Shown here: one piece after another, positions 1 through 21,538 of the stretch
Numbering within the stretch: the stretch's first letter is position 1
Layout: each line of letters starts with the position of its first letter
From: an uncultured bacterium
GTDB lineage: Bacteria > Bacillota > Clostridia > Christensenellales > Pumilibacteraceae
Reading direction: 5' to 3'
DNA length: 24,120 nt
NCBI GenBank assembly: GCA_949747725.1
Contig: CATKFJ010000302.1
Location: forward strand, 1 to 24,120
Made by a program: the position numbers and the translations under genes
The notes under the pieces: generated by a model
The model's input: only the letters and a program-made list of their open reading frames with translations
Database searches by the model: none
What the model was told of the DNA's origin: nothing

Positions 1-1513
1 ATGCGAACGGCGTTTTGTCCGCGGCTCCTACAATGGGAGGAACAACGGCTGTCAATAACAGGACGATAGCGCATGCAAGCGCGAAAAAATCGAACTTGAA
101 ATTCTTATCGGCTTTATAAACAAGACCGCGCAACGATCTGACCGTTGCGATAAACGCAAGCGCTATAGCTACTTCGCCCAATGCGGCGGTAATTATACTG
201 TTCACAGTGCTAGCATAAGAATAATAAATTTTGGTAGCGCCGTACGAAATAAAAACATTTGCGGTAAACAGCATTTCCAGCGTAGCGCCAAGCGGTGCAT
301 GCAAAGTAATGCTTAATTCTTTTAAATCTTTCTCTATAAAAGTTACGACGTTAATAATATTGCCGAACAGCAAGAAAAACGCGGTAATCGACAGTGCGGC
401 GACTACGGCGCGCTTTACCGTATGCTTTACGGGCGCCCCGTCGATAAACGCTTTTGCCAAACCGCCGACAAGTAAGGCGATCGCCGACATTACGGCTACG
501 ACAAGAAGCGCATCGCTCGGTGCAAGCATCGCGGCGATCGACAGTATGCACAACCCGACGCCGGACAAGATAAGCATGCTTGTAAGATAGGCAAAGAGCT
601 TACAGTTCTTTTTACGCAACATTCCGACAACGGCAAGAATAATGAATATTGCCGACAATACAACGATAACAAGTCTTATAAATACGGCTATCAACGCCAT
701 GACGAGCGCATATATTGTAGTATAGCGTTCATTATCGAGCATGTAAGCCATATCTATTTCTATTTCCTCTCCCGAAATATGGTCCATTGCGCCTATAGTA
801 GTTACGGCTAAATTATAGGCAAACATATTTATGTTTTTAAGTTCTGCCGCCATTAGCTCCATGGCTTTAGAGAACAGTTGTTCGGTAGTTGCGTCGGGAT
901 TGCGCACATACCACTTTTTAAGTTCGTTTTCCAACTTTTTATCGTTGATTATTTTGTTATAGTCATTGTATATATCGTCGATCTTTTTAACGTCCGCTTT
1001 ATCATACATATTGAGATTTAAATATCCGAGCGCGCCGAACACTTTCCATATAGATTGGTCTACAGTCTGAACGGATAATTCAAACTCCGTTTCTTCGCTT
1101 GCGTCGTTTGCAAACAAAGGCGAAATATCCGAATATGTCATTTTTATAGGACACAATAAAGCTATAAGAATAAACACTGCCGCAAACACGATCATCAACG
1201 TATTTACAATTACGCAATGTTTATTCTCGAAATCAACGATACCGCGCTTGGTTTTGCTTATCCACGCGCTCGCGCTCGATCGAGCGTCAGTCTTTACGGG
1301 TGCGCATGAAGGCTCAACGGGTTCGGCAGCAGTTTGACTTTCCGCTTCGTCGAATTTAGCGCCGCACATATTGCAAAATATGCCGTGCATGGGACGCTTA
1401 GCGCCGCAATTCGGGCAAAACCGATCTTCCGGAATTTCTACCTCCTTTCCGCACTGACTGCAAAACCGCGAAGTATCGGGATTTTGATAACCGCAATTGC
1501 CGCACTTTTTCAT
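1..1513 (-). CDS. Zinc-ribbon multi-span membrane protein, C-terminus cut by window edge
   Basis: The frame is open from an ATG at 1513 to the left edge, giving 504 residues and no stop, so the C-terminus is missing. A GGAGG ribosome binding site lies six bases before the ATG. Two tandem zinc ribbons form the N-terminus (Cys4/Cys7 with Cys18/Cys21, and Cys33/Cys36 with Cys47/Cys50). A polar linker leads to a first membrane span near residues 100-123. A mostly hydrophilic region of about 140 residues follows, probably outside the membrane. After that come closely packed hydrophobic spans near 264-298, 305-329, 332-353, 368-392, 437-460 and 473-495. I do not recognise the family beyond 'zinc-ribbon domain membrane protein', and I assign no function. 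It has its own promoter and is separated from gpmI by a probable terminator, so it is likely transcribed separately. Confidence 0.85.
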   Translation of the reverse strand, partial: MKKCGNCGYQNPDTSRFCSQCGKEVEIPEDRFCPNCGAKRPMHGIFCNMCGAKFDEAESQTAAEPVEPSCAPVKTDARSSASAWISKTKRGIVDFENKHCVIVNTLMIVFAAVFILIALLCPIKMTYSDISPLFANDASEETEFELSVQTVDQSIWKVFGALGYLNLNMYDKADVKKIDDIYNDYNKIINDKKLENELKKWYVRNPDATTEQLFSKAMELMAAELKNINMFAYNLAVTTIGAMDHISGEEIEIDMAYMLDNERYTTIYALVMALIAVFIRLVIVVLSAIFIILAVVGMLRKKNCKLFAYLTSMLILSGVGLCILSIAAMLAPSDALLVVAVMSAIALLVGGLAKAFIDGAPVKHTVKRAVVAALSITAFFLLFGNIINVVTFIEKDLKELSITLHAPLGATLEMLFTANVFISYGATKIYYSYASTVNSIITAALGEVAIALAFIATVRSLRGLVYKADKNFKFDFFALACAIVLLLTAVVPPIVGAADKTPFA

Positions 1514-8553: not shown

Positions 8554-9444
8554 CTACCTGACAGACGGATCGCCCACACCGTATACGGCTACTGCGCCCG
8601 GGCCTACCGACGCGCCGATAATAGGACCTATGGTGTTTATGTATATTTCCTTCGGGTCTATAAGCTCCCTTACTCTGTCGGCAAGGTATTTCGCGGCTTC
8701 GGGACAGTCGCCGTGAACGACTATAACGGTCTGCTCGGACGCCGGCACGGGACCTTTTTCTATAGCAGCTTTCAATAGATTTACGCATTCGTCATGCGCG
8801 TTTTTGGTACCCTTTACCTTTTTTACGGCTTCGTTTTCGCCTGCGGCGTTGCTTATGATAATGGGCTTGATTCCGAACAAATTACCGAAAAACGCCGCCG
8901 ACGCTTTTACTCTGCCGGCGCGTTTCAGATATGTAAGACTGTCCGCCGTGCAAAACTGCAAAACGTTTACCGAGTACTCTTTTAGCCGCTCGCCTATCGC
9001 AACGGCGTCAAGCCCCTGTGCGGCAAGCTCTGCCGCCTTTAACGCAACGAGAAGTTCGCCGCCGCACGAATTTTTGGGATCGACGCAAACGATTTTATGT
9101 CCCGAATATTTTTCTTCGAGATTTTTGGCTACTACCTGTCCGACGTTATAAGACCCCGACAGTGCTGACGAACAAGCGACGTAAACAATGTCGTATCCGT
9201 CGTCCAAGTATTTGCCGAACACGTTTTCGAATTCGCTTACGGCAACCTGATTGGTAGTTATCCTTATGCCCGAACGCATAGCGTCGTAAAATTCTTTTAC
9301 CGTATAAATATCCCAATCCGTTGACGCCGGCTTTTCCTCGCCGCTCCAATTGACTGACATGCGCACATAGTCGATGTCGTATTGACCGCGCAGATCCTTG
9401 CCCATATCCGAACAAGAATCGGTAATGATCTTAACTTTATTCAT
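8554..9444 (-). CDS. fakB: DegV-family fatty acid-binding protein (FakB-like)
   Basis: DegV/FakB proteins bind a single fatty acid and present it to FakA for phosphorylation. The 296-residue protein shows the family start KIITDSCSD, a TTNQ segment near 63-66, the carboxylate-binding ACSSALSGSYN around 90-100, the YLKRAGRV motif at 172-179 and the C-terminal IGPIIGASVGPG. In that last motif the family normally has histidine (GAHxGPG), but here it is Ser279, so binding or phosphotransfer may differ from studied FakB proteins. A strong AAGGAGG site precedes the ATG at 9444, with a dedicated promoter upstream. Adjacency to fakA supports the FakB role. The chain-length preference cannot be read from sequence. 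Confidence 0.93.
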   Translation of the reverse strand: MNKVKIITDSCSDMGKDLRGQYDIDYVRMSVNWSGEEKPASTDWDIYTVKEFYDAMRSGIRITTNQVAVSEFENVFGKYLDDGYDIVYVACSSALSGSYNVGQVVAKNLEEKYSGHKIVCVDPKNSCGGELLVALKAAELAAQGLDAVAIGERLKEYSVNVLQFCTADSLTYLKRAGRVKASAAFFGNLFGIKPIIISNAAGENEAVKKVKGTKNAHDECVNLLKAAIEKGPVPASEQTVIVVHGDCPEAAKYLADRVRELIDPKEIYINTIGPIIGASVGPGAVAVYGVGDPSVR

Positions 9445-9483
9445 ACAAGTCCTCCTTAATAGTTATAACGTAATGTCTACACA

Positions 9484-9512
9484 ATATTACCAAATTCGAC
9501 AACGGTTGTCAA
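9484..9512 (-). promoter_or_regulatory. Promoter of the fakB-fakA operon
   Basis: TTGACA (9512-9507), a 17-base spacer and TAATAT (9489-9484) read on the minus strand, followed by a leader with the AAGGAGG site of fakB. Confidence 0.8.
9498..9510. promoter_or_regulatory. Candidate operator in the fakB promoter
   Basis: GACAACGGTTGTC is a perfect inverted repeat with six-base arms around one base. It overlaps the -35 box and the adjacent spacer of the fakB promoter, where a bound repressor would block RNA polymerase. It does not match the FapR operator as I know it, and I saw no second copy in the window. Confidence 0.45.
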
Positions 9513-9552
9513 TAAAAAATAAGAAAAGCGTTAGATAGCCCGTTGCGATTCC

Positions 9553-10227
9553 TTATGATTTATCACTCCCGTCTTTATCGATTATTTCATACCCGAACAC
9601 GTCGTCGTATTTCTTTTCGCTCCGAGCTTCGACCGCCGCGTCGGTTATTGGTGCGGCTGACGACTTGTCCGTATCGCGGCGCGTTACGGGCGCAGGGATT
9701 TTTTTAAGTACGACCGTCGCGAGCGAAGCAAATATAATATCGAGCGGCAACAGTATTACCGTCATAACTACCGCGAGCACGGGATATCCGCCCAATCTCG
9801 CAGCCCATTCCGCTAAATTCATGCCGTCTATCCCCACCGAAACCACATTTATCACTATCGCGTACAATACTCCGAACATTGCGTTAAAATACAATATCGC
9901 AATCAACGCCCTTAACGCGGCGAACTTCGGTTTAAAATACGAAAAGCGTTGCAAAAAATAGGTCAATATTCCGTACGGCGCAAAAATAACGACAAAAGTA
10001 AGCCATTTGACCGATAGTCCGCTCATTAAAAACATAAGCCCTACCGACGCAAGCGCGCAAAGAATACCGTACGGCAGACTGCCGCGCTTGCATGCCAAAA
10101 ATATGCAAAATGCCGCTAAATATAACGGCATAAAGCTTAACGGCAAGTATGCCGTAAGCAAACACATAATAACCGCTAACGCAGTGCAAACCGCGGCAGT
10201 AGTGAGTTTTTTGGTTGCGGCGCGCAT
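9553..10227 (-). CDS. Integral membrane protein, possibly ECF-transporter S-component-like
   Basis: The 224-residue protein starts with a short basic segment followed by TTAAVCTALAVIMCLLTAYLP, a pattern common in substrate-binding (S) components of energy-coupling factor vitamin transporters and in related small membrane proteins. I count about six hydrophobic spans, near residues 8-28, 33-46, 52-69, 73-92, 107-131 and 147-172. A charged cytoplasmic tail of about 45 residues follows, which is longer than usual for S components. No ECF ATPase or T component is in the window, so any transport role and substrate are open. The gene lies 11 bases after the J-domain-like gene and is probably the last of that run. 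Confidence 0.75.
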   Translation of the reverse strand: MRAATKKLTTAAVCTALAVIMCLLTAYLPLSFMPLYLAAFCIFLACKRGSLPYGILCALASVGLMFLMSGLSVKWLTFVVIFAPYGILTYFLQRFSYFKPKFAALRALIAILYFNAMFGVLYAIVINVVSVGIDGMNLAEWAARLGGYPVLAVVMTVILLPLDIIFASLATVVLKKIPAPVTRRDTDKSSAAPITDAAVEARSEKKYDDVFGYEIIDKDGSDKS

Positions 10228-10238
10228 GTCTTATATAT

Positions 10239-10892
10239 TTAACAGCAACGCATTGCGTTGCACAGACAGTCCGTCAAGCAATACGCGCAGCAGCATGAGC
10301 TTAAACAGTTAGCCATATTGTCGGCAGGCTGCTGTTGCGGCGGATAATTTCCGTTTTCTCCGTAAGGGGGCTGACCGTTATTATAGCCGCCGTAATTTCC
10401 CGTTTGACCGTTATTGGGCATCTGGTTCCGCGCGCCGTTGCCGCTCATGGAAAGATTTAGCTTATCGAGCGACGAACGGTATTTGGGATTGTTCGGGTCT
10501 TCGCGGAGCGCCATTTCGAGCTGAGTCTTAGCCTCCGTCAACCATTCGCGTTTATAAAAAACTATGGCTTGCATATAGTGCCATTCGCCTTTTCTGTCCT
10601 GAATGGAATCGAGAATATCCTGCGCCTCGTTATACTTACCCTGTCTGATAAGCGAATCGACGTTGCCGAAATCGCCGTCAAACGCCGACGTTCTGCTTTC
10701 CTGCTCGATATTAGCGCTTATTACGACCCACGCCTCTTCGAGTTCCTGAAGCTTGCGCGCGCCCTCGTTGCCTTCCTCGCCGGATTTAAAACGCTGTTCG
10801 CTGTAAATTTCGTGCAGCTCTTCGTATTTGGATTTTAACTTTTCGGGGCTTGACGATTTATCGAGTCCCAACACCGCATAGGGGTCTTTCAT
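10239..10892 (-). CDS. Degenerate J-domain/TPR protein with a cysteine-rich tail
   Basis: Residues 3-58 resemble a DnaJ J-domain (DPYAVLGL at the start, a long helix, then the AWVVI end helix), but the HPD motif that stimulates Hsp70 is missing; SEQ follows Tyr30 instead. Residues 73-147 form tetratricopeptide-like helices with the typical LEMALREDPNNPKY ending. A low-complexity Gly/Asn/Pro/Gln linker (about 150-193) leads to a C-terminal tail with nine cysteines in the last 22 residues. The tail could bind metal, form disulfides or be acylated; the sequence does not decide. A TAAGGAG site precedes the ATG. It lies 46 bases after the DUF5685 gene, and my recollection is that such J-like proteins often neighbour DUF5685 genes in Clostridia. 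A classical co-chaperone role is unlikely. Confidence 0.85.
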   Translation of the reverse strand: MKDPYAVLGLDKSSSPEKLKSKYEELHEIYSEQRFKSGEEGNEGARKLQELEEAWVVISANIEQESRTSAFDGDFGNVDSLIRQGKYNEAQDILDSIQDRKGEWHYMQAIVFYKREWLTEAKTQLEMALREDPNNPKYRSSLDKLNLSMSGNGARNQMPNNGQTGNYGGYNNGQPPYGENGNYPPQQQPADNMANCLSSCCCAYCLTDCLCNAMRCC

Positions 10893-10938
10893 AATATCTC
10901 CTTACATGACCTATGATATGCTATTCCGCTTATTTTAA

Positions 10939-11808
10939 CTATATTCTGGGCGGTTTTAGCTTTTTCGTCGAATCGAGCAATTCTTTCGCTTTAGAGCGCA
11001 TACCGCCGAACACTATATTTCTTATGAGCGAATAGCTCTGAGTGAAACGCATGCGCGAAAAACATTCTTCCGCTCTTCCGCAAATACCGTTGAATATAAA
11101 TTCCAACTGCTCGCGGTTAGCTTTTATAAAACATGCGCGGTTCTTAAACTCGCCCATGGAAAGCAGGAACGGATTGTACCGCTTATGCTTGCGATCGTCG
11201 ACAAGATCGTCGAGCGCATCGGCAAGATAAACGAACTTCCCTACATTATAACACAAACTCTTTAAATTGTCATCCGTTTGAACGCCCAATATCAGTTCGG
11301 GCAGATCGCGCATAAGGCTTGCAAACGGATCGGCGGCGCGGTCTATGCTCGACGTTTTGCTTTTTTCTACGGCGGACTGTTCCTTTACCGAACGCTTTAC
11401 GCGCTCCCATACTTCGGGACATATCGACTGCGCGAGCTTGCACGGTTTTCTCAGCATCCGCCTGAGCGCGCGATATTTCAGTCCGTCGCCGTCGACTACC
11501 CCGTCGTCGGCTTTCTGATAACACAGAATAATGTTAGCCGCGGCAATGCGTTTCAGCAGTTCGTTTGATTGCAGTATCGCCTTTTTTTTGGGATTGAGTA
11601 CGCACGGGCGTTCTTCTATCACCACATTCGCCTGACCGTAATCGTGCAACAAAGCCGATAGGAACGCAAAGTCGTAGTTTGTAGTAAACCTCGGCAACTG
11701 TCCGTACATTCTGCCCGTTTCACAGCACACGCCGCAATAGAAGGAGCGGTAAAGTACGAAATCGCTTGCCGACATGGTGGATTTTTGAGGTACAATATAT
11801 CCGTACAT
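10939..11808 (-). CDS. DUF5685 family protein
   Basis: The N-terminus MYGYIVP followed by YRSFYCGVCCE (Cys25, Cys28, Cys29) is the recognisable opening of the DUF5685 family, whose function is unknown to me. The 289-residue protein is mostly helical and soluble. Two aspartate-rich segments stand out, YQKADDGVVDGDG at about 97-109 and YLADALDDLVDD at 194-205. Their spacing recalls the paired Asp-rich metal/diphosphate sites of all-helical isoprenoid synthases, but this is only a resemblance. The ATG at 11808 lies three bases after the trpS stop and has no clear ribosome binding site, so translational coupling with trpS is likely. The J-domain-like gene follows on the same strand. Confidence 0.85.
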   Translation of the reverse strand: MYGYIVPQKSTMSASDFVLYRSFYCGVCCETGRMYGQLPRFTTNYDFAFLSALLHDYGQANVVIEERPCVLNPKKKAILQSNELLKRIAAANIILCYQKADDGVVDGDGLKYRALRRMLRKPCKLAQSICPEVWERVKRSVKEQSAVEKSKTSSIDRAADPFASLMRDLPELILGVQTDDNLKSLCYNVGKFVYLADALDDLVDDRKHKRYNPFLLSMGEFKNRACFIKANREQLEFIFNGICGRAEECFSRMRFTQSYSLIRNIVFGGMRSKAKELLDSTKKLKPPRI

Positions 11809-11811
11809 TGT

Positions 11812-12831
11812 CTACAACCGAACAAAGCCTATCTTTTTATAAACTTTTTCCAACGTGCGCACGGCAACGCGTCGGGCGTTCTCCGCACCGCTTCTCATGA
11901 GTTCGACAAGCGCGTTATCGTCGCGCCGCAAACTGTCGTACTTTTCACGTATGGGGCGGAGCGTTTCCACAACAGCCTCTCCAACACGCTTTTTGAACGA
12001 CGCGTAATCGGAGTTTTCGAATTCTTTTTCCGCGTCCCTGACCGACATGTTTTGAACAGACGCGTAAATCGAAAGCAGATTGGTTATGCCGGCTTTGTCT
12101 TTAGCAGCCACGATCTTGTTGTCGCAGTCGGTCACCGCGCGCTTAAACTTGCGCATTATATCCTCGGGTCGGTCGAGAATAAACACCGAACCGTCGGCGT
12201 TACCGTCGCTCTTGCCCATTTTCGCCGTCGGATCGGAAAGCGAATAAATGCGCTTGCCTACCTTGGGAACTCTGCCCTCGGGCACGGCGAACGTAGGACT
12301 GTATCTGTTGTTAAACCGATTGGCGATTGTACGGCAAAGCTCTACGTGTTGCAACTGATCCTCGCCGACGGGAACGATATCCGTTTGGTAAAGCAGGATA
12401 TCCGCCGCCATCAATACGGGATAATCGAACAGCCCGACGTTTACGTTCTCGGGAGCTTTTTGGCTCTTTTCCTTGAACTGCGTCATGCGCCGACCTTCGC
12501 CGAACATCGTGTAATTATTGAGCAGCCAGCACAGTTCGGCGTGCGCCGTAACATGCGACTGCACAAACAGCAAATTCTTTTCGGGTTCTATGCCGAGCGC
12601 TATCAAAAGCGCGAACATACGTTTGGTGTTTTCGCGCAGCTCTTTGGGTTCTATGGCAACGGTTATGGCATGAAGATCGGCAACCGCATAAATACAATCG
12701 AACTCGTCGGACATTGCAGGCCATTGCCGCATTGCGCCGATATAGTTTCCGAGCGTCGGATTACCCGTCGGCTTGATAGCCGAAAACACTCGCTTGCGTT
12801 TTTCGCTTTGTTGTTCGAGTTGATTTTCCAT
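11812..12831 (-). CDS. trpS: Tryptophanyl-tRNA synthetase
   Basis: This class I aminoacyl-tRNA synthetase charges tRNA-Trp in the cytoplasm. The HIGH-type signature is PTGNPTLGNYIGA (21-33), and the KMSKS loop appears as KMGKS (204-208), a common TrpRS variant. YPVLMAADILLY and VGEDQ, which shape the tryptophan and ATP sites, are intact. At 339 residues it has normal length apart from a charged N-terminal extension of about 12 residues before VFSAIKPTG. AAAGG before the ATG serves as ribosome binding site and lies next to the thrC stop, 12 bases upstream. I see no T-box leader before the gene or the run, so tRNA-Trp-sensing control is not evident. Confidence 0.98.
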   Translation of the reverse strand: MENQLEQQSEKRKRVFSAIKPTGNPTLGNYIGAMRQWPAMSDEFDCIYAVADLHAITVAIEPKELRENTKRMFALLIALGIEPEKNLLFVQSHVTAHAELCWLLNNYTMFGEGRRMTQFKEKSQKAPENVNVGLFDYPVLMAADILLYQTDIVPVGEDQLQHVELCRTIANRFNNRYSPTFAVPEGRVPKVGKRIYSLSDPTAKMGKSDGNADGSVFILDRPEDIMRKFKRAVTDCDNKIVAAKDKAGITNLLSIYASVQNMSVRDAEKEFENSDYASFKKRVGEAVVETLRPIREKYDSLRRDDNALVELMRSGAENARRVAVRTLEKVYKKIGFVRL

Positions 12832-16094: not shown

Positions 16095-17201
16095 TCAATC
16101 GTATCTTTCGAACTTCTCGAGCACGGTTGCGTCCACGGACGGTTTAACGCCGTCCAACGCGTCCTCTATATCGCGCATGGTAAGACCGCTTATAACGCCC
16201 GAACCGAGCGAACGCCGCAGCGGCGCGTCGGTCGCTCTGTCCACAAGCTCCGCAACGTCCGCGCCCGAAAAACCGAGCGTTCTAAGCGCGAGTACCGAAT
16301 AGTCTATATCGCCGTCGAGCTTGGTATTTTTAAGCTTGGACTTTATCATGGCAAGCCGCGCTTTTTCGTCCGGAAGCGGAATATATATCTTTTGACTGAA
16401 CCGCCCGGGACGCAGCGCAGCATCGTCCACCGCCCACGGATTGTTCGTCGCGCCCAACACCATGAGTCCCGAGCTCGTTCCCGAAAACCCGTCTATCTGT
16501 TGGAGCAGTTCGTTCACGCGTCTGTCGTTATGCACGTCGCTGCCGCGTTTGAAAAACAGCGAATCCAACTCGTCGAAGAAAATGATCGCGCGGTCGTTTG
16601 CGCGCGCGGCGTCGAAAAGCGCGGCGATGTTCTTTTCCGACTCGCCCACCCATTTGCTGACGATATCCGAACACTTTACCGCATAGAACACCGCGCCGGC
16701 CTCGTGCGCCGCGGCTTTGGCAAGCATAGTCTTGCCCGTCCCCGGCGGACCGTATAAAAGAACGCCGCCGCCCGACTTCTTACCGAGCGCGGCATACACG
16801 TCGCCGTGTTCCATAGGATATATCATTTTTATGCGTATTGCGTCCTTGGCGTCGTCAAGTCCTATAACGTCGTCAAACGTTACGTCGGGGATCTCCGCCG
16901 AACGGAACGCCGCGCAGCTTTCGCCGTCCGATATCGCTTCCGTGCCGCGCGACCGCACGGGTTCTACGGGCTTTTGGGGCGCGGACTCGGGCAAACCGTC
17001 TGCGATCGCTATAATACGCTTGGCGCGCTCGACTCGCGCGGCTTTCAGCTTTTCGCCGGAAAGCTTGGCAAGCTCAGTCATTATCTCCGCCGAACGGTAG
17101 TAGTCGCGCTTGGCTTTGTTGTACTGCCCCGAGTTCTGCGCGGACTGAGCCGACGAATACAGCATGTCGAAATTGCGTAAAAGAACGTCCTCGTTATTCA
17201 T
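16095..17201 (-). CDS. Vps4-like AAA ATPase with MIT-like N-terminal domain
   Basis: The first 70 or so residues form a three-helix pattern resembling an MIT domain, with GQYNKAKRDYYRSAEIMTEL as its centre. A Pro-rich linker (about 71-103) leads to one AAA module: VTFDDVIGLDDAK (107-119), Walker A GPPGTGKT (151-158), Walker B IIFFDELDSL with Asp210 and Glu211, the GATNNPW sensor region (250-256), and RPGRF with candidate arginine fingers. The pore loop SDIVSKWVGESEK (178-190) is nearly that of Vps4 and katanin. The C-terminal LEKFERYD resembles the last helix of the Vps4/katanin/spastin clade. The Vps4 beta domain seems absent. In eukaryotes and some archaea such ATPases disassemble ESCRT-III polymers. 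The gene starts four bases after the ESCRT-III-like gene. I infer a matching disassembly role in bacteria. A GGAG site precedes the ATG. Confidence 0.92.
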   Translation of the reverse strand: MNNEDVLLRNFDMLYSSAQSAQNSGQYNKAKRDYYRSAEIMTELAKLSGEKLKAARVERAKRIIAIADGLPESAPQKPVEPVRSRGTEAISDGESCAAFRSAEIPDVTFDDVIGLDDAKDAIRIKMIYPMEHGDVYAALGKKSGGGVLLYGPPGTGKTMLAKAAAHEAGAVFYAVKCSDIVSKWVGESEKNIAALFDAARANDRAIIFFDELDSLFFKRGSDVHNDRRVNELLQQIDGFSGTSSGLMVLGATNNPWAVDDAALRPGRFSQKIYIPLPDEKARLAMIKSKLKNTKLDGDIDYSVLALRTLGFSGADVAELVDRATDAPLRRSLGSGVISGLTMRDIEDALDGVKPSVDATVLEKFERYD

Positions 17202-17205
17202 CGCA

Positions 17206-17808
17206 TTACTCCGATTGCAGTTCGCCGAGCCGACGTTCGACCGCGCACGTATCCGAATTCGCTTCGATTTCCGAATCGAGCTGTTCCTGCATTTCGAACA
17301 TAGCGAGCAATTCGTCGTCCGACTTATTCGCCGAATAAATAGGACTGTTGTCCGACTCTACGGCTTGTTCGTACGCGCCGAAAAGTTCGTCTGCGCCCAC
17401 AAGCGCTTCTTCCGCGGCAGTACGGTTTTGCACCGAACTTTCGAGGAACGCCGCAAGCGCTTTCTGATCGCTCAACAGCTTATTAAGCGGCAATTTGGTA
17501 GTATTCTCGATAAAACGATTGTCGTCGATAGCCGCCTTGAGTTTTTCGAGCAGTTTTACATTGTACAGTAGAAACGCCGCGCGTTTGGTGTCGCGTTTTA
17601 TCTCTTCCTGTAACGTGCTTATCTTTTTCGCGCACAAAAGCTTGATGTCGCGGTTCTTTTCTTTACGACCGCGCTCCATAAGCGACTCCGCTTCGGCAGA
17701 CTTTGCGAGTATGCCGTTTTCGAGTTCTTCCTGCTGTTTGGTCTGCTCGATGATCGCGTTTACAACGTCCTCGCGCTTTAATTTTTTAAACTTGTTTCGT
17801 CCGAACAT
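17206..17808 (-). CDS. Snf7/ESCRT-III-like coiled-coil protein
   Basis: From the ATG at 17808, which has GGAG five bases upstream, the product is 200 residues and almost all helical. A more distant TTG start (17850) has no binding site. The N-terminus MFGRNKFKKLKRED is strongly basic. Two long helices (about 13-49 and 53-97) would form a hairpin, followed by shorter helices near 106-122 and 129-152 and an acidic helix DDELLAMFEMQEQLDSEIEA (164-183). This order, with its basic first half and acidic end, matches Snf7/CHMP proteins. The C-terminus VERRLGELQ (190-198) resembles MIM1, which in eukaryotic ESCRT-III proteins binds the Vps4 MIT domain. The next gene encodes an MIT-like AAA ATPase. 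It could alternatively be a generic coiled-coil or PspA-type protein. Structure prediction would decide. Confidence 0.85.
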   Translation of the reverse strand: MFGRNKFKKLKREDVVNAIIEQTKQQEELENGILAKSAEAESLMERGRKEKNRDIKLLCAKKISTLQEEIKRDTKRAAFLLYNVKLLEKLKAAIDDNRFIENTTKLPLNKLLSDQKALAAFLESSVQNRTAAEEALVGADELFGAYEQAVESDNSPIYSANKSDDELLAMFEMQEQLDSEIEANSDTCAVERRLGELQSE

Positions 17809-17878
17809 GATAGCTCCGTGATTTGGTTCGGAATTAAAAATCGGCTGCAACGCCTTTTAGAAATTCCCGAGGCTGAAT

Positions 17879-18208
17879 TTACTTTACGTACGAATTCCTT
17901 TCGGCGATCGCTACGTTAAGATCTTTGATTATTTCCTCGGCTTGGATAATTCCGCGGTCGTTGCCTTTAGACAACGCGATCTTAAGATCGCCGGCAAGCG
18001 CGTTTATCTTTTTGTCCGCTTGCGCCGCACCGACTTTATCCGAAGGCGTCATGTACCGCACCGCGTCGTAAACGCGTTCCGCGCTTTCTTTCATTTCGCC
18101 CAAAGCTATTTCTTTACAAACCTCGAGAATACGCGTATTGTCTTCTACGCGGATGCGGCTGTCGTTCAGAAGCTCTTTCTTGTCCGGCTTGGAAAAACAA
18201 AATCCCAT
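17879..18208 (-). CDS. Small helical protein of the TIR-SPFH-ESCRT-like operon
   Basis: This 109-residue protein has no family I recognise. It starts MGFCFSKPDKKELL, a short hydrophobic then basic opening rather like that of the coiled-coil protein downstream. Three or four amphipathic helices follow, near 24-53, 60-79 and 85-107. There are no membrane spans, cysteine pairs or catalytic motifs. An AAGGAG site lies six bases before the ATG. It sits 27 bases after the SPFH gene and 70 bases before the ESCRT-III-like gene, clearly inside the operon. It may be an adaptor, a regulator of polymer assembly or a diverged short relative of its neighbour. The function is unknown. Confidence 0.8.
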   Translation of the reverse strand: MGFCFSKPDKKELLNDSRIRVEDNTRILEVCKEIALGEMKESAERVYDAVRYMTPSDKVGAAQADKKINALAGDLKIALSKGNDRGIIQAEEIIKDLNVAIAERNSYVK

Positions 18209-18235
18209 GATATCTCCTTTTATATTGTAACTTGT

Positions 18236-19069
18236 TTAAAGTTTCTTTCCGCACTCCGAGCAGAACTTAGCTCCGGCATTGAGTTTGGTTCCGCAGTTCG
18301 GGCAGAATCTGTCGCCGAGCGCCGCGCCGCATTCCGCGCAAAACTTAGCCGAATGTCCTACCGTTGCGCCGCAAATCGGACAAGCCTTGCCGTTTTTTCC
18401 GAGTTCGTCGCGTTTGCGTTCTATCGCCATTATGTCCGCATCAGAAATGATAGCGCCGTTTACAGTAAACGAACAAAGCTCCAAACCGTACTCGGCGGAA
18501 AAAATATCGCCGATCTTATCCTTCAGGCACGCCGAAATCTTTACTTTTTTCTCGCCGAACTCGGTATAGCTCAAACGCTCCTCTCGCATTATCTCCGAAA
18601 CCACAGGCTCTACCACGCTCATGAGCCGTGACAGCAACCGTTTTTTAAGCTTATCCACGCTGTATTCGGTGTCCGCGCCCACTAACTCCAGATAGAACTG
18701 TTTGGGCGTTTTTACGCGGAATTCGAGTTCGCCGTTTATCCCGATCGATACGGGCACGCCTGTAAGCGGATCGCGCGTCCTTATGGGCGAAGCGGTTCCC
18801 CAAAGCATGGGCAGCTTAGCCGATTTGGAAATGAACACAAAATCCACCGACGCGCAATCGCTGTCCTTTTTAAGCCGAAACAGCCCGTTTTCGGTATCGA
18901 AAATATCGTGCCGTCCCGGTTCCAACGCCTCCGACACAACACCGTCTTTTATCAGCAAAACGGTATGCGTTTCAGGCACGATCACCTGCGCTTTAGCATG
19001 AAGTTCGTCCGCGCTTTCGCGGCAAAACAATTCCGTATTATTACCTGTGAATTTAACCAATTCCGCCAT
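18236..19069 (-). CDS. SPFH (YdjI-like) protein with tandem C-terminal zinc ribbons
   Basis: Residues about 20-215 match the SPFH/Band-7 fold of the YdjI ('virion core protein-like') group: a beta-rich start with VPETHTVLLIKDG and EPGRHDI, then GINGELEFRVKTPKQF, and helices running to IMAIERKRDEL. The last 48 residues hold two zinc ribbons (Cys230/233 with 244/247, and Cys256/259 with 270/273). No clear transmembrane span is present, so membrane association would be peripheral. In Bacillus subtilis, YdjI acts with the PspA homologue encoded in the same operon, and PspA belongs to the ESCRT-III superfamily. That makes the ESCRT-III-like gene two genes downstream meaningful. GGAGGTGA overlaps the TIR gene's stop codon three bases upstream, so translation of the two is coupled. 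Confidence 0.92.
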   Translation of the reverse strand: MAELVKFTGNNTELFCRESADELHAKAQVIVPETHTVLLIKDGVVSEALEPGRHDIFDTENGLFRLKKDSDCASVDFVFISKSAKLPMLWGTASPIRTRDPLTGVPVSIGINGELEFRVKTPKQFYLELVGADTEYSVDKLKKRLLSRLMSVVEPVVSEIMREERLSYTEFGEKKVKISACLKDKIGDIFSAEYGLELCSFTVNGAIISDADIMAIERKRDELGKNGKACPICGATVGHSAKFCAECGAALGDRFCPNCGTKLNAGAKFCSECGKKL

Positions 19070-19072
19070 GGG

Positions 19073-21538
19073 TCACCTCCCCGTTTGTTTATTATTGTTG
19101 TGCTTGGAAAGCTTGATACCTTCCAATACTATGGTTATTACCGACATTACCGTAAGAGCGACTTGACTTATTTCCACCTCTATATCGTCCGTTAAACTGC
19201 CGACAAAGTTCGCTATCACGATTATTGCGATACTTATCGTCAAATTGATCGTAGATATTATAACGGCATATTTCTGTTTGTTGGCAAACATAACTATGTC
19301 GCACAAGACGCGAAACACAAAGCACGTTATCAACAGCGAATCAATGGTTTCGGCGTTGTCGTGTACGCCGTCTATCACGTTTATCACGGCTATAACGAAC
19401 ATCAACCAACACAGCCCGGCAAAAACAAACGAACATGCGCCCTGCGCTATCCCAAACGCTTTTTGCCTGCGCTGTTTTTTTACGGTTTCGCGCTCATCGC
19501 GCGCTTTTTCCTCTTTGACGCGCCTCGATTTATCCGCACGGTTGTTCTCTATCTTTTCGAGCAGTTCGTCGTATATCCGTTTTTGTTCTTCGGTTGCAAG
19601 CGATTGCGCAAGCATGAAATATTCGTTTGTCGAAATATCCGCGGTAGACGCGCCGAGCTGATCCTCGGTCATATTGACGTCGCGCAACATTTTGCGGAAA
19701 TACAGCATGGACGAATAATAATTATACGTATCTATGGGCAGTATGTTCTTATTATCGACAAGATAATCGCTGAGCTTGGAGTCGTTCGTTCTGTTTTTGC
19801 TGCGTTCTCTCAAAAACAGCTGCGCGTTCCGCGCCACCGTTTCGCGCGCATTGGCGTATTCCCGAGCCTGCGCCGGCGACGCATACTTTACGGCAAGGTT
19901 ATACTCGGTTTCTCGCGTGATATCCTCCACGCACACAAGCGGCGTCTGTCCGTACTTAGCCCACAGTCTAAGCCAATAATACGTGCTTGCGACGTCGGGA
20001 AACTTTTTAAACAGCATACTGTCTTCGTCGGCGAACGCGTCCCTACAATCGTCGAGCGTTTCCGACAGACTCGAAAAATCTTCGTCGCGATATAGCCGCT
20101 GCGCGTCGTCCAGCTTGGATTTGACTTTACGCACGATCTTAGCCGAAAACGCGCTTAAAACGTCGTTAAGCCGCCGTTCGAAATTCGGTTCGTCGTCGGC
20201 AAACCGCACGGCATTATGATAGTAACGATGAACGGTAAAATCCTTACCGCTGTTCAACAGCATCTCGTCGCCTGCAAGCTTGTAATCGCACAGCATCAAA
20301 AGCCACCAAGCCTGAGCGCATTCCGGATCTTCGTCGAGTATGCCGTCGATTATATTTTCCGCGCGGCTGAAGTTTTGCGACTGCACTTCTATCTCGGCGC
20401 GGCGCAGTTTAGACCCGAACGACACCGAGCGCGCAGCGCCCGTTGCCGCCACGCCGCTTGCGACTATTTTTTCCAAACGGTCGAGTCGCTCCTGCTCTTT
20501 TGTGCGACGCTGTTCGGCAAGCATGCGTTCCTTTTCGCGCGCAAGCATACGCTTTTCTTCAAGCTCGCTCTTTTCGCGCTCGTCGCGCGCAAGTATGCCC
20601 TTTATATCTATAACAAGCTGTTCGAGATGCGCATACGGGTCGTCCTGAGCGTCCAACCACTGAACCTGCGACAGTGCGCGCTCGAACGCGCCGTCGTACG
20701 GAGTATCGTCTATCCTGTAGCTGTATAGCGCTTTATTCTCGAGCACCGCGGCTTTAAGCTCCATTTCGCAATCCTGCGAATATATGGATTTAAAGCTCGA
20801 AACAAGCAAGAACACTTTGCTGTTCTCCACGCCTTTCAGTATGTCGCGTTCGTAATTCTGCGATCCGGCAAGAATGTTGCGCGGCGCTATCCAACACCGC
20901 AATCCGCGTTCCTCGAGTCGAGTGCATATGGCGTCGGCTATATCCTGATCGGGTTCCGCCGTCCTGTGACATATAAACACGTCGCGATCGGTCACCTTGG
21001 AATAGCGCAATTTCTGTATGTACGATTTTATATTGCGGTCGAGCGCGGCGTCGTAATCGGCATAAGCGCTCGGATACGCGCGCGCGATGAATTCTTTTAC
21101 CGCGTCGAGATATTTCGGCTCGACGGTAGAAACAAGCGACGCCGTCACTTCTCTCAGCTCGTCGGGCGTAACGCCCGTAAACCGCGACGAACGTAAAAAC
21201 TCTAAAAATCCGACATCGCTGCCGTCGTACCGATCGGCAAGCGCAACATAGTACTGCGCGCAAAAATCGTCGGGCAGGACTGACAATATTTTTTGCGCAA
21301 AAAGCTTAACGCCGCCGTAATCGCGCGCCTTGCTGCTGTCCTGCTGAAGCCGTAACTGTTTGGCAAGATACTCGCGCCATGCCCTGATGTCTTGGGTATG
21401 GTCAAGCTCGACTTTGGAAAACAAAGCCGCACGCGGCACGTTAAACGTGCTTCCGCACGCCTCGCACTTACAGAATTCTCCCGAACCGTCGGGTATTATA
21501 GCGGTACTGCCGCAGTTTGTACATCTTACTTGTTCCAT
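19073..21538 (-). CDS. Membrane-anchored TIR-domain protein with N-terminal zinc ribbon
   Basis: The 821-residue protein starts with a zinc ribbon (Cys6/Cys9 and Cys25/Cys28). A helical segment leads to a TIR domain at about 184-318: RDVFICHRTAE, GLRCWIAPRNILAGS (the BB-loop region), and the helix with DCEMEL, where Glu260 is placed like the catalytic glutamate of NAD-cleaving TIR domains. A charged coiled coil spans about 318-358. A long helical, repeat-like region (about 370-690, with TPR-like stretches) follows, then four hydrophobic spans near 698-722, 733-752, 757-780 and 791-807 and a polar tail. TIR domains act in signalling, in NAD depletion during phage defence, or as scaffolds; which applies here is not shown. 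It is first in the operon, with no ribosome binding site and a TATAAT 12 bases before the ATG. Confidence 0.92.
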   Translation of the reverse strand: MEQVRCTNCGSTAIIPDGSGEFCKCEACGSTFNVPRAALFSKVELDHTQDIRAWREYLAKQLRLQQDSSKARDYGGVKLFAQKILSVLPDDFCAQYYVALADRYDGSDVGFLEFLRSSRFTGVTPDELREVTASLVSTVEPKYLDAVKEFIARAYPSAYADYDAALDRNIKSYIQKLRYSKVTDRDVFICHRTAEPDQDIADAICTRLEERGLRCWIAPRNILAGSQNYERDILKGVENSKVFLLVSSFKSIYSQDCEMELKAAVLENKALYSYRIDDTPYDGAFERALSQVQWLDAQDDPYAHLEQLVIDIKGILARDEREKSELEEKRMLAREKERMLAEQRRTKEQERLDRLEKIVASGVAATGAARSVSFGSKLRRAEIEVQSQNFSRAENIIDGILDEDPECAQAWWLLMLCDYKLAGDEMLLNSGKDFTVHRYYHNAVRFADDEPNFERRLNDVLSAFSAKIVRKVKSKLDDAQRLYRDEDFSSLSETLDDCRDAFADEDSMLFKKFPDVASTYYWLRLWAKYGQTPLVCVEDITRETEYNLAVKYASPAQAREYANARETVARNAQLFLRERSKNRTNDSKLSDYLVDNKNILPIDTYNYYSSMLYFRKMLRDVNMTEDQLGASTADISTNEYFMLAQSLATEEQKRIYDELLEKIENNRADKSRRVKEEKARDERETVKKQRRQKAFGIAQGACSFVFAGLCWLMFVIAVINVIDGVHDNAETIDSLLITCFVFRVLCDIVMFANKQKYAVIISTINLTISIAIIVIANFVGSLTDDIEVEISQVALTVMSVITIVLEGIKLSKHNNNKQTGR

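Follow-up and report, generated by a model that had tools for sequence, protein, structure and literature searches.

We analysed a stretch of 24,120 nucleotides (contig CATKFJ010000302.1 of assembly GCA_949747725.1, hereafter the window) from an uncultured bacterium of the Pumilibacteraceae (Bacillota, Clostridia), represented by a metagenome-assembled genome (MAG) of 1.6 Mb that is 79% complete. The window carries five adjacent genes on the minus strand, which encode a zinc-ribbon TIR protein, an SPFH-domain protein, a protein of 109 amino acids (SM), a coiled-coil protein of 200 amino acids (SNF) and an AAA ATPase with an MIT-like N-terminus (Table 1). All five open reading frames start with ATG and are separated by gaps of 3, 27, 70 and 4 bases. 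A first-pass annotation made from the letters of the window had proposed this operon and read it as an ESCRT-like membrane-remodelling module coupled to TIR signaling, with a possible role in envelope stress or anti-phage defense. The operon is real, and its coordinates and gaps match that description. It is also present in close relatives, among them a contig titled Anaerocaecibacter muris CLA-AA-M11 (NCBI: Bacillota, Clostridia, Pumilibacteraceae).

Recurrence of the operon in related genomes

GTDB contigs were scanned with an alignment of SNF, which yielded 53 loci, or 54 together with the window. Gene content was assessed in the 39 of these 54 loci whose flanks reached 2 kb or more upstream and 4 kb or more downstream of SNF (15 were omitted for short flanks), and to be counted a gene had to share the strand and fall inside fixed distance limits. 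Some of the loci are close kin (L088/L089, L063/L065) and not independent. An MIT-ATPase gene was found in all 39 assessable loci, the SPFH gene in 38, SM in 38 (at most 600 bases upstream of SNF), the zinc-ribbon TIR gene in 32 and a gene for a trypsin-like protein in 19. Furthermore, 34 of them possess a second coiled-coil gene downstream of SNF, termed V2, which was found by iterative profiles and, among the assessable loci, is lacking from the operon only in the genus of the window. The order SPFH - SM - SNF - MIT-ATPase recurs in Clostridia, in MAGs titled Bacilli and in Candidatus Izemoplasma. The most distant locus (L094, Candidatus Izemoplasma acidinucleici) encodes an SNF protein of 31% identity and shows the order SPFH-SM-SNF-V2-AAA-TIR. 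The co-occurrence that had been predicted for related genomes was thus borne out, and an arrangement shared by many genomes is more than chance.

A survey of 200 genomes of the order, which scored the MIT region of the ATPase and not its AAA part, recovered SNF in 15 genomes and the MIT region in 19, while 21 contained V2 (18 at a best E of 1.5e-37 or lower, three at 1e-8 to 8e-7). The MIT region was present in 15/15 genomes with SNF and in 18/18 genomes with a strong V2 match (G502 only at E 8.8e-6). In all of these 18 genomes V2 and the MIT region share a contig, 17 times within 300 bases and once 4.2 kb apart. One surveyed genome contains a second SNF copy with a single in-frame TGA (G428:C13:369781-370356, minus strand). 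Within the genus the occurrence is patchy, as only six of the 20 genomes carry the window-type operon. V2 was found in 0/299 genomes drawn across the phylum, with a query that does match in the order survey, and the module therefore looks lineage-restricted.

Proteins of the operon

For the N-terminus of the ATPase, structure prediction gives a bundle of three helices with good confidence, and its top fold matches are the MIT domains of Vps4 and of archaeal CdvC. Aligned to two Vps4 MIT domains with hhalign, the MIT region scored inside the range of shuffled controls. The protein matches PF00004 (E 2.8e-40), AAA_lid_3 and, weakly, Vps4_C (E 0.013), and its AAA domain contains the pore loop SKWVGESEK and the motif ATNNPW; across the family ATNxPW is kept in 39/50 and RPGRF in 30/50 members. 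No Vps4-type beta domain was seen by eye in the window ATPase. Among the NCBIfam models CDC48 scored 227 bits, CdvC 203 (aligned over 17-367), FtsH 201 and PAN 196, and in a small tree the AAA domain grouped weakly with Vps4 (support 85/71, not starred). A plain FtsH or PAN, although near CdvC in score, was rejected on the MIT N-terminus and the lack of a peptidase domain among the 25 Pfam families listed, and not on the scores. Judged from these matches, the term Vps4-like seems to fit the architecture (MIT plus AAA with a weak Vps4_C match) more than the AAA domain. The MIT region is the best-conserved part of the ATPase, because four loci change the AAA type and others vary in length, with 672-731 amino acids in 19 of the loci L042-L094. 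A long ATPase at L040:9287-11377 (minus strand), the only one with scanned domains, combines the MIT region with an AAA_lid_6-type AAA followed by a Vps4/Cdc48-like AAA.

SNF is predicted to form helices at residues 12-49, 53-103, 108-111, 115-151 and 162-198. Its AF2 model has a mean pLDDT of 72 and a pTM of 0.48, with blocks of 76-95 at residues 11-100 and of 43-69 beyond. In a Foldseek search against the PDB, 16 of the 20 best matches were ESCRT-III-superfamily chains (Vipp1, CHMPs, Asgard ESCRT-III, CdvB2), each of them individually weak (all E >= 0.11), and the model superposes on the CHMP1B hairpin at 1.0 A across 93 residues. The predicted fold leans towards SNF as an ESCRT-III-fold candidate, and we use the term Snf7-like for the predicted fold only. 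The first-pass annotation had made its proposal depend on an MIT-like fold of the ATPase N-terminus and an ESCRT-III fold of SNF, and both withstood the fold comparisons. An hmmsearch of the SNF profile against PDB sequences did not detect a link to Snf7, and hhalign detected no relation between SNF and V2. The C-terminal DDELLAMFE of SNF is well conserved in 65 sequences, with L168 and E172 invariant and D164, D165, L167, A169 and F171 nearly so, and this tail may represent an MIT-interacting motif. PspA/Vipp1 was rejected as an identity for SNF or V2: the window SNF has no match to PF04012 (PspA_IM30) at E <= 1, and this family is absent among the 25 families listed for the SNF family and for the V2 family. 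The best PF04012 match of the window genome (E 0.72) lies at another place than the operon.

For V2, profile comparisons are best read as indicating a Vps2-class ESCRT-III homologue. Searched against 24,736 Pfam models, Snf7 was the family matched by most members (26/40, best E 3.3e-4). When the V2 profile was aligned with CHMP2A/CHMP1B/CHMP3 by hhalign, the score was 35.4 (E 1.1e-4, probability 56%, 145 columns), whereas the reversed control reached 17.4 and none of 60 column-shuffled controls exceeded 17.6. An hmmsearch of the V2 profile against the PDB, as well as a single V2 query, returned nothing at E < 0.1 and no ESCRT chain. The V2 proteins terminate in a conserved IxxELxxLKK, which we take to resemble MIM1.

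In the genus of the window, V2 is found at a separate locus, where two V2 genes and another MIT-AAA gene follow der and plsY and lie near spoIVA in 4/4 cases (identified by Pfam SpoIVA in L041 and by blastp in the relatives). Such V2 pairs occur in four of the six genus genomes with the window-type operon, namely the four of highest completeness; the two that lack a pair are 79% and 84% complete. Of the 14 other genus genomes none has a V2 pair, and five contain a single V2. The chance of this overlap would be 15/4845 = 0.003 if the genomes were independent, and they are related. In the window genome neither V2 nor spoIVA was detected; its assembly ends inside der, where the V2-pair locus would lie, so this is not evidence of absence. 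At two such loci a V2 protein with its Vps2-like ESCRT-III domain is fused to an FtsK/SpoIIIE domain (L109:5719-7254, plus strand, PF01580 E 2e-28; L108:7621-9102, minus strand, E 4.9e-29), and each fusion lies next to a further V2 and a further MIT-AAA, in the interval from der-plsY to spoIVA. Between this second V2/MIT-AAA locus and spoIVA, L109 also encodes a TIR - NB-ARC - beta-propeller-like protein of 1107 amino acids (9390-12713, plus strand; NB-ARC E 2.4e-23, TIR_2 E 9.7e-16).

The SPFH protein matches PF13421 (Band_7_1, E 5.4e-17) and PF13240 (double zinc ribbon, E 2.3e-12), and the membrane-anchored TIR protein of the first-pass annotation could likewise be recognized, by a PF13676 match (E 2.6e-17) and four hydrophobic segments close to the C-terminus that start near residues 704, 734, 758 and 786 in a simple hydropathy scan. 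SM has no Pfam match, and an N-terminal hydrophobic segment is present in 18 of 51 members of its family. We aligned 47 of the 48 TIR proteins found (L089 was omitted as close to L088). The cysteines of the two N-terminal CxxC pairs are invariant in this set, TIR_2 is matched in 45/47, and 45/47 have a Glu in the column of window residue 260, which by analogy to known TIR NADases is putatively catalytic. BspA-type LRR_5 repeats are present in 12/47 and TPRs in many. The window protein belongs to a divergent subgroup of four within the set, which keeps the Glu. Zinc-ribbon TIR proteins with BspA leucine-rich repeats (LRRs) and a receptor-like layout are encoded at L040:4011-8447 (minus strand) and L033:4724-10951 (plus strand), the latter also with Listeria-Bacteroides repeats. 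In the same loci, a trypsin-like protease with N-terminal CxxC pairs adjoins the module (L040:8499-9272, minus strand; L033:12402-13187, plus strand; Trypsin_2 E ~1e-24 in both, 1.5e-24 in L040).

The operon is flanked by ordinary bacterial housekeeping genes: phosphoglycerate mutase, triosephosphate isomerase, a tRNA synthetase, threonine synthase, an aminotransferase and an antiporter-like gene. A partial protein of 504 amino acids with an open end (window 1-1513, minus strand) matches the SPFH query at E 2e-6, perhaps via a zinc ribbon.

Table 1. Positions of the operon genes and their features in the window, and of the variant ATPases in four related loci.
Feature	Position	Strand	Basis
MIT-AAA ATPase, 368 aa	16095..17201	-	Pfam/NCBIfam; Vps4/CdvC-like architecture
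AAA core, ATPase residues 147-276, with SKWVGESEK and ATNNPW	16374..16763	-	Pfam, motif reading
MIT domain, ATPase residues 1-75	16977..17201	-	predicted three-helix bundle
SNF, 200-aa ESCRT-III-fold candidate	17206..17808	-	predicted fold
SNF acidic C-terminal motif DDELLAMFE, candidate MIT-interacting motif	17293..17319	-	conservation; role inferred
SM, 109 aa	17879..18208	-	gene position, family
SPFH/Band-7 protein, 277 aa, C-terminal double zinc ribbon	18236..19069	-	Pfam
Zn-ribbon - TIR - helical - C-terminal transmembrane protein, 821 aa	19073..21538	-	Pfam, hydropathy
TIR domain, residues 187-309	20612..20980	-	PF13676
Putative catalytic Glu260 of TIR protein	20759-20761	-	conserved column
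N-terminal zinc ribbon of TIR protein (C6, C9, C25, C28)	21455..21523	-	invariant cysteines
MIT N-terminus with AAA_lid_6-type AAA only	L053:5511-6647, L071:11175-12488, L074:11175-12359, L075:11212-12327	+	domain scan (L074 reads alike)

Proposed membrane remodelling and alternative functions

With moderate confidence, we favor the view that the operon encodes a bacterial SPFH/ESCRT-III/MIT-ATPase membrane-remodelling module that is coupled to TIR signaling. In such a module the SPFH zinc-ribbon protein would mark or scaffold a membrane site, at which SNF would polymerize, starting from its basic/hydrophobic N-terminus, together with V2, which is encoded in the same operon in relatives and at the second locus in the genus of the window. 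Through its MIT domain the ATPase would then grip the C-terminal tails, DDELLAMFE in SNF and the MIM1-like IxxELxxLKK in V2, and would extract the subunits, so that the membrane is remodelled and the subunits are recycled. The zinc-ribbon TIR protein, anchored in the membrane, may act as a paired sensor or effector that probably consumes NAD+ upon membrane breach or failed repair. The structural half of the ESCRT-like reading is largely supported, by the genes with their conserved order, the predicted MIT fold, the predicted SNF hairpin and the Vps2-class profile match of V2 in sister operons, with SNF included by its predicted fold.

Several results weigh against this view. In Pfam, only 2 of 65 SNF family members match Snf7 (best E 1.4) and the single window SNF also fails, and an hhalign comparison of SNF with ESCRT-III was no better than the reversed control. 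The first-pass label of a Snf7-like coiled-coil protein therefore stands for the helix layout and hairpin of the prediction and finds no support from sequence methods. At L053, L071, L074 and L075 the ATPase has one AAA after the MIT region and no Vps4/Cdc48-type AAA; three of these were scanned and contain an AAA_lid_6-type AAA, and the fourth, L074, reads alike. If L078, whose contig ends within the second AAA, is counted as truncated, 35 of the 39 assessable loci have the Vps4/Cdc48-type motor or lose it to a contig end. The earlier label of a Vps4-like AAA holds for the MIT-AAA architecture more than for the AAA domain, in view of the higher CDC48 score, the weak tree grouping and the swapped domain.

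The same features bear on membrane protein quality control, where an SPFH scaffold and a Cdc48-like unfoldase would cooperate in an HflKC/FtsH-like logic, with SNF and V2 as coiled-coil adaptors and the trypsin-like protease degrading the substrates. The CDC48/p97 top score, the protease near the module in about half of the loci (19/39), the missing sequence link between SNF and ESCRT-III and the exchange of the AAA type would all suit this explanation. We nevertheless consider it unlikely, given the Snf7 match of V2 and the MIT fold predicted for the ATPase N-terminus, and because V2 and the MIT region are close neighbors in all but one of the strong-V2 genomes. The module might also serve a housekeeping role at membranes, for example in division or in the formation of spore membranes or vesicles, with the TIR protein as a scaffold. 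This appears improbable given that the parts occur in only 15-21 of the 200 order genomes, although the V2-V2-MIT-AAA locus lies near spoIVA in every genus member having it and L109 and L108 each encode a V2 fused to an FtsK/SpoIIIE domain.

Anti-phage defense by abortive infection overlaps with the remodelling module and names its trigger: the SPFH/ESCRT parts would sense or wall off phage membrane lesions and the TIR protein would kill by NAD+ depletion. The conserved TIR Glu, the patchy occurrence in the genus and the variability of the TIR proteins make this a possibility that we hold tentatively. On the other hand, some loci yielded no TIR protein, and the neighbors are housekeeping genes. 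A search of phage records with V2 and one of plasmid records with SNF, the only two of the four combinations that were run, both came back empty. Because the same aminotransferase gene lies downstream of the operon in the window and in L042-L046, the operon is not obviously mobile there.

A more specific form of the remodelling module, which we regard as speculative, would be a two-subunit ESCRT-III/MIT-AAA machine in Bacillota, with SNF as the Snf7/Vps20-like and V2 as the Vps2-like subunit, that in some loci is paired with a receptor-like transmembrane BspA-LRR TIR protein triggering ESCRT repair or cell death. If true, this LRR-TIR/ESCRT pairing would follow a logic like that of Toll-type immunity and of the response to membrane damage in animals. 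In gut Clostridia, in Candidatus Izemoplasma and in MAGs titled Bacilli, the operon family sets an MIT-AAA gene beside a putative ESCRT-III gene of the Vps2 class, and it would join membrane remodelling to TIR signaling. It could provide a small system for testing minimal ESCRT parts and the link between SPFH proteins and ESCRT-III; the window-type variant, together with the V2-pair locus elsewhere in the genome, is found in the assembly of Anaerocaecibacter muris strain CLA-AA-M11.

Comparison with known systems

We found no prior description of the operon in the openly accessible journal papers that were searched. Among defense systems, PADLOC partly matched the AAA protein to IetA (E 2.7e-35) and weakly the TIR protein to ThsB (E 6.9e-5), with no significant match for the SPFH, SM or SNF proteins. 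The AAA protein scores higher with CDC48 and CdvC, and the other window proteins match no partner of IetAS or Thoeris. An identity as IetAS was rejected, since the IetA match is partial and lower-scoring and IetS was not matched by any of the remaining four proteins of the operon.

Bacterial Snf7 or PspA genes occasionally adjoin AAA ATPases, according to passages of Ravi et al. (2024, PMC11237479), which count Vps4-like transfers and a protein with two AAA domains among such cases and do not describe an SPFH-SM-SNF-V2-MIT-AAA-TIR operon. The cases in these passages differ from ours: the N-terminal copy of the two-AAA protein is called inactive and sits with PspA, and beside the bacterial Vps4-like genes a TPR/6TM protein displaces Snf7.

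An experimental precedent for an SPFH-ESCRT-III link at the membrane is PspA-YdjI of B. subtilis, as described in parts of Scholz et al. (2021, PMC8581546). Compared by description, our operon likewise appears to tie an SPFH protein to a candidate ESCRT-III-superfamily protein, and the YdjI-type feature, a PF13421 protein with a zinc ribbon, lies upstream of SNF in 38/39 loci, with SNF placed in the superfamily by fold only. In contrast, the description there names no MIT-AAA or TIR partner, and SNF and V2 have no PspA match among the Pfam families listed.

In archaeal Meth_adaptin ESCRT loci, passages of Makarova et al. (2024, PMC10936438) describe a zinc-ribbon SPFH protein that is encoded together with Vps4 and ESCRT-III, an arrangement that our operon resembles; ours differs by its TIR protein. 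One recent survey confines the ESCRT machine to archaea and eukaryotes. Relative to archaeal CdvB/CdvC and eukaryotic ESCRT-III/Vps4, the present module is bacterial, has SPFH and TIR partners, and possesses an AAA domain that is not clearly of the Vps4 clade and is swapped in four loci. With these systems it shares an MIT-AAA gene beside genes of putative ESCRT-III type, the profile match of V2 to Snf7 and a predicted MIT fold that is closest to CdvC and Vps4.

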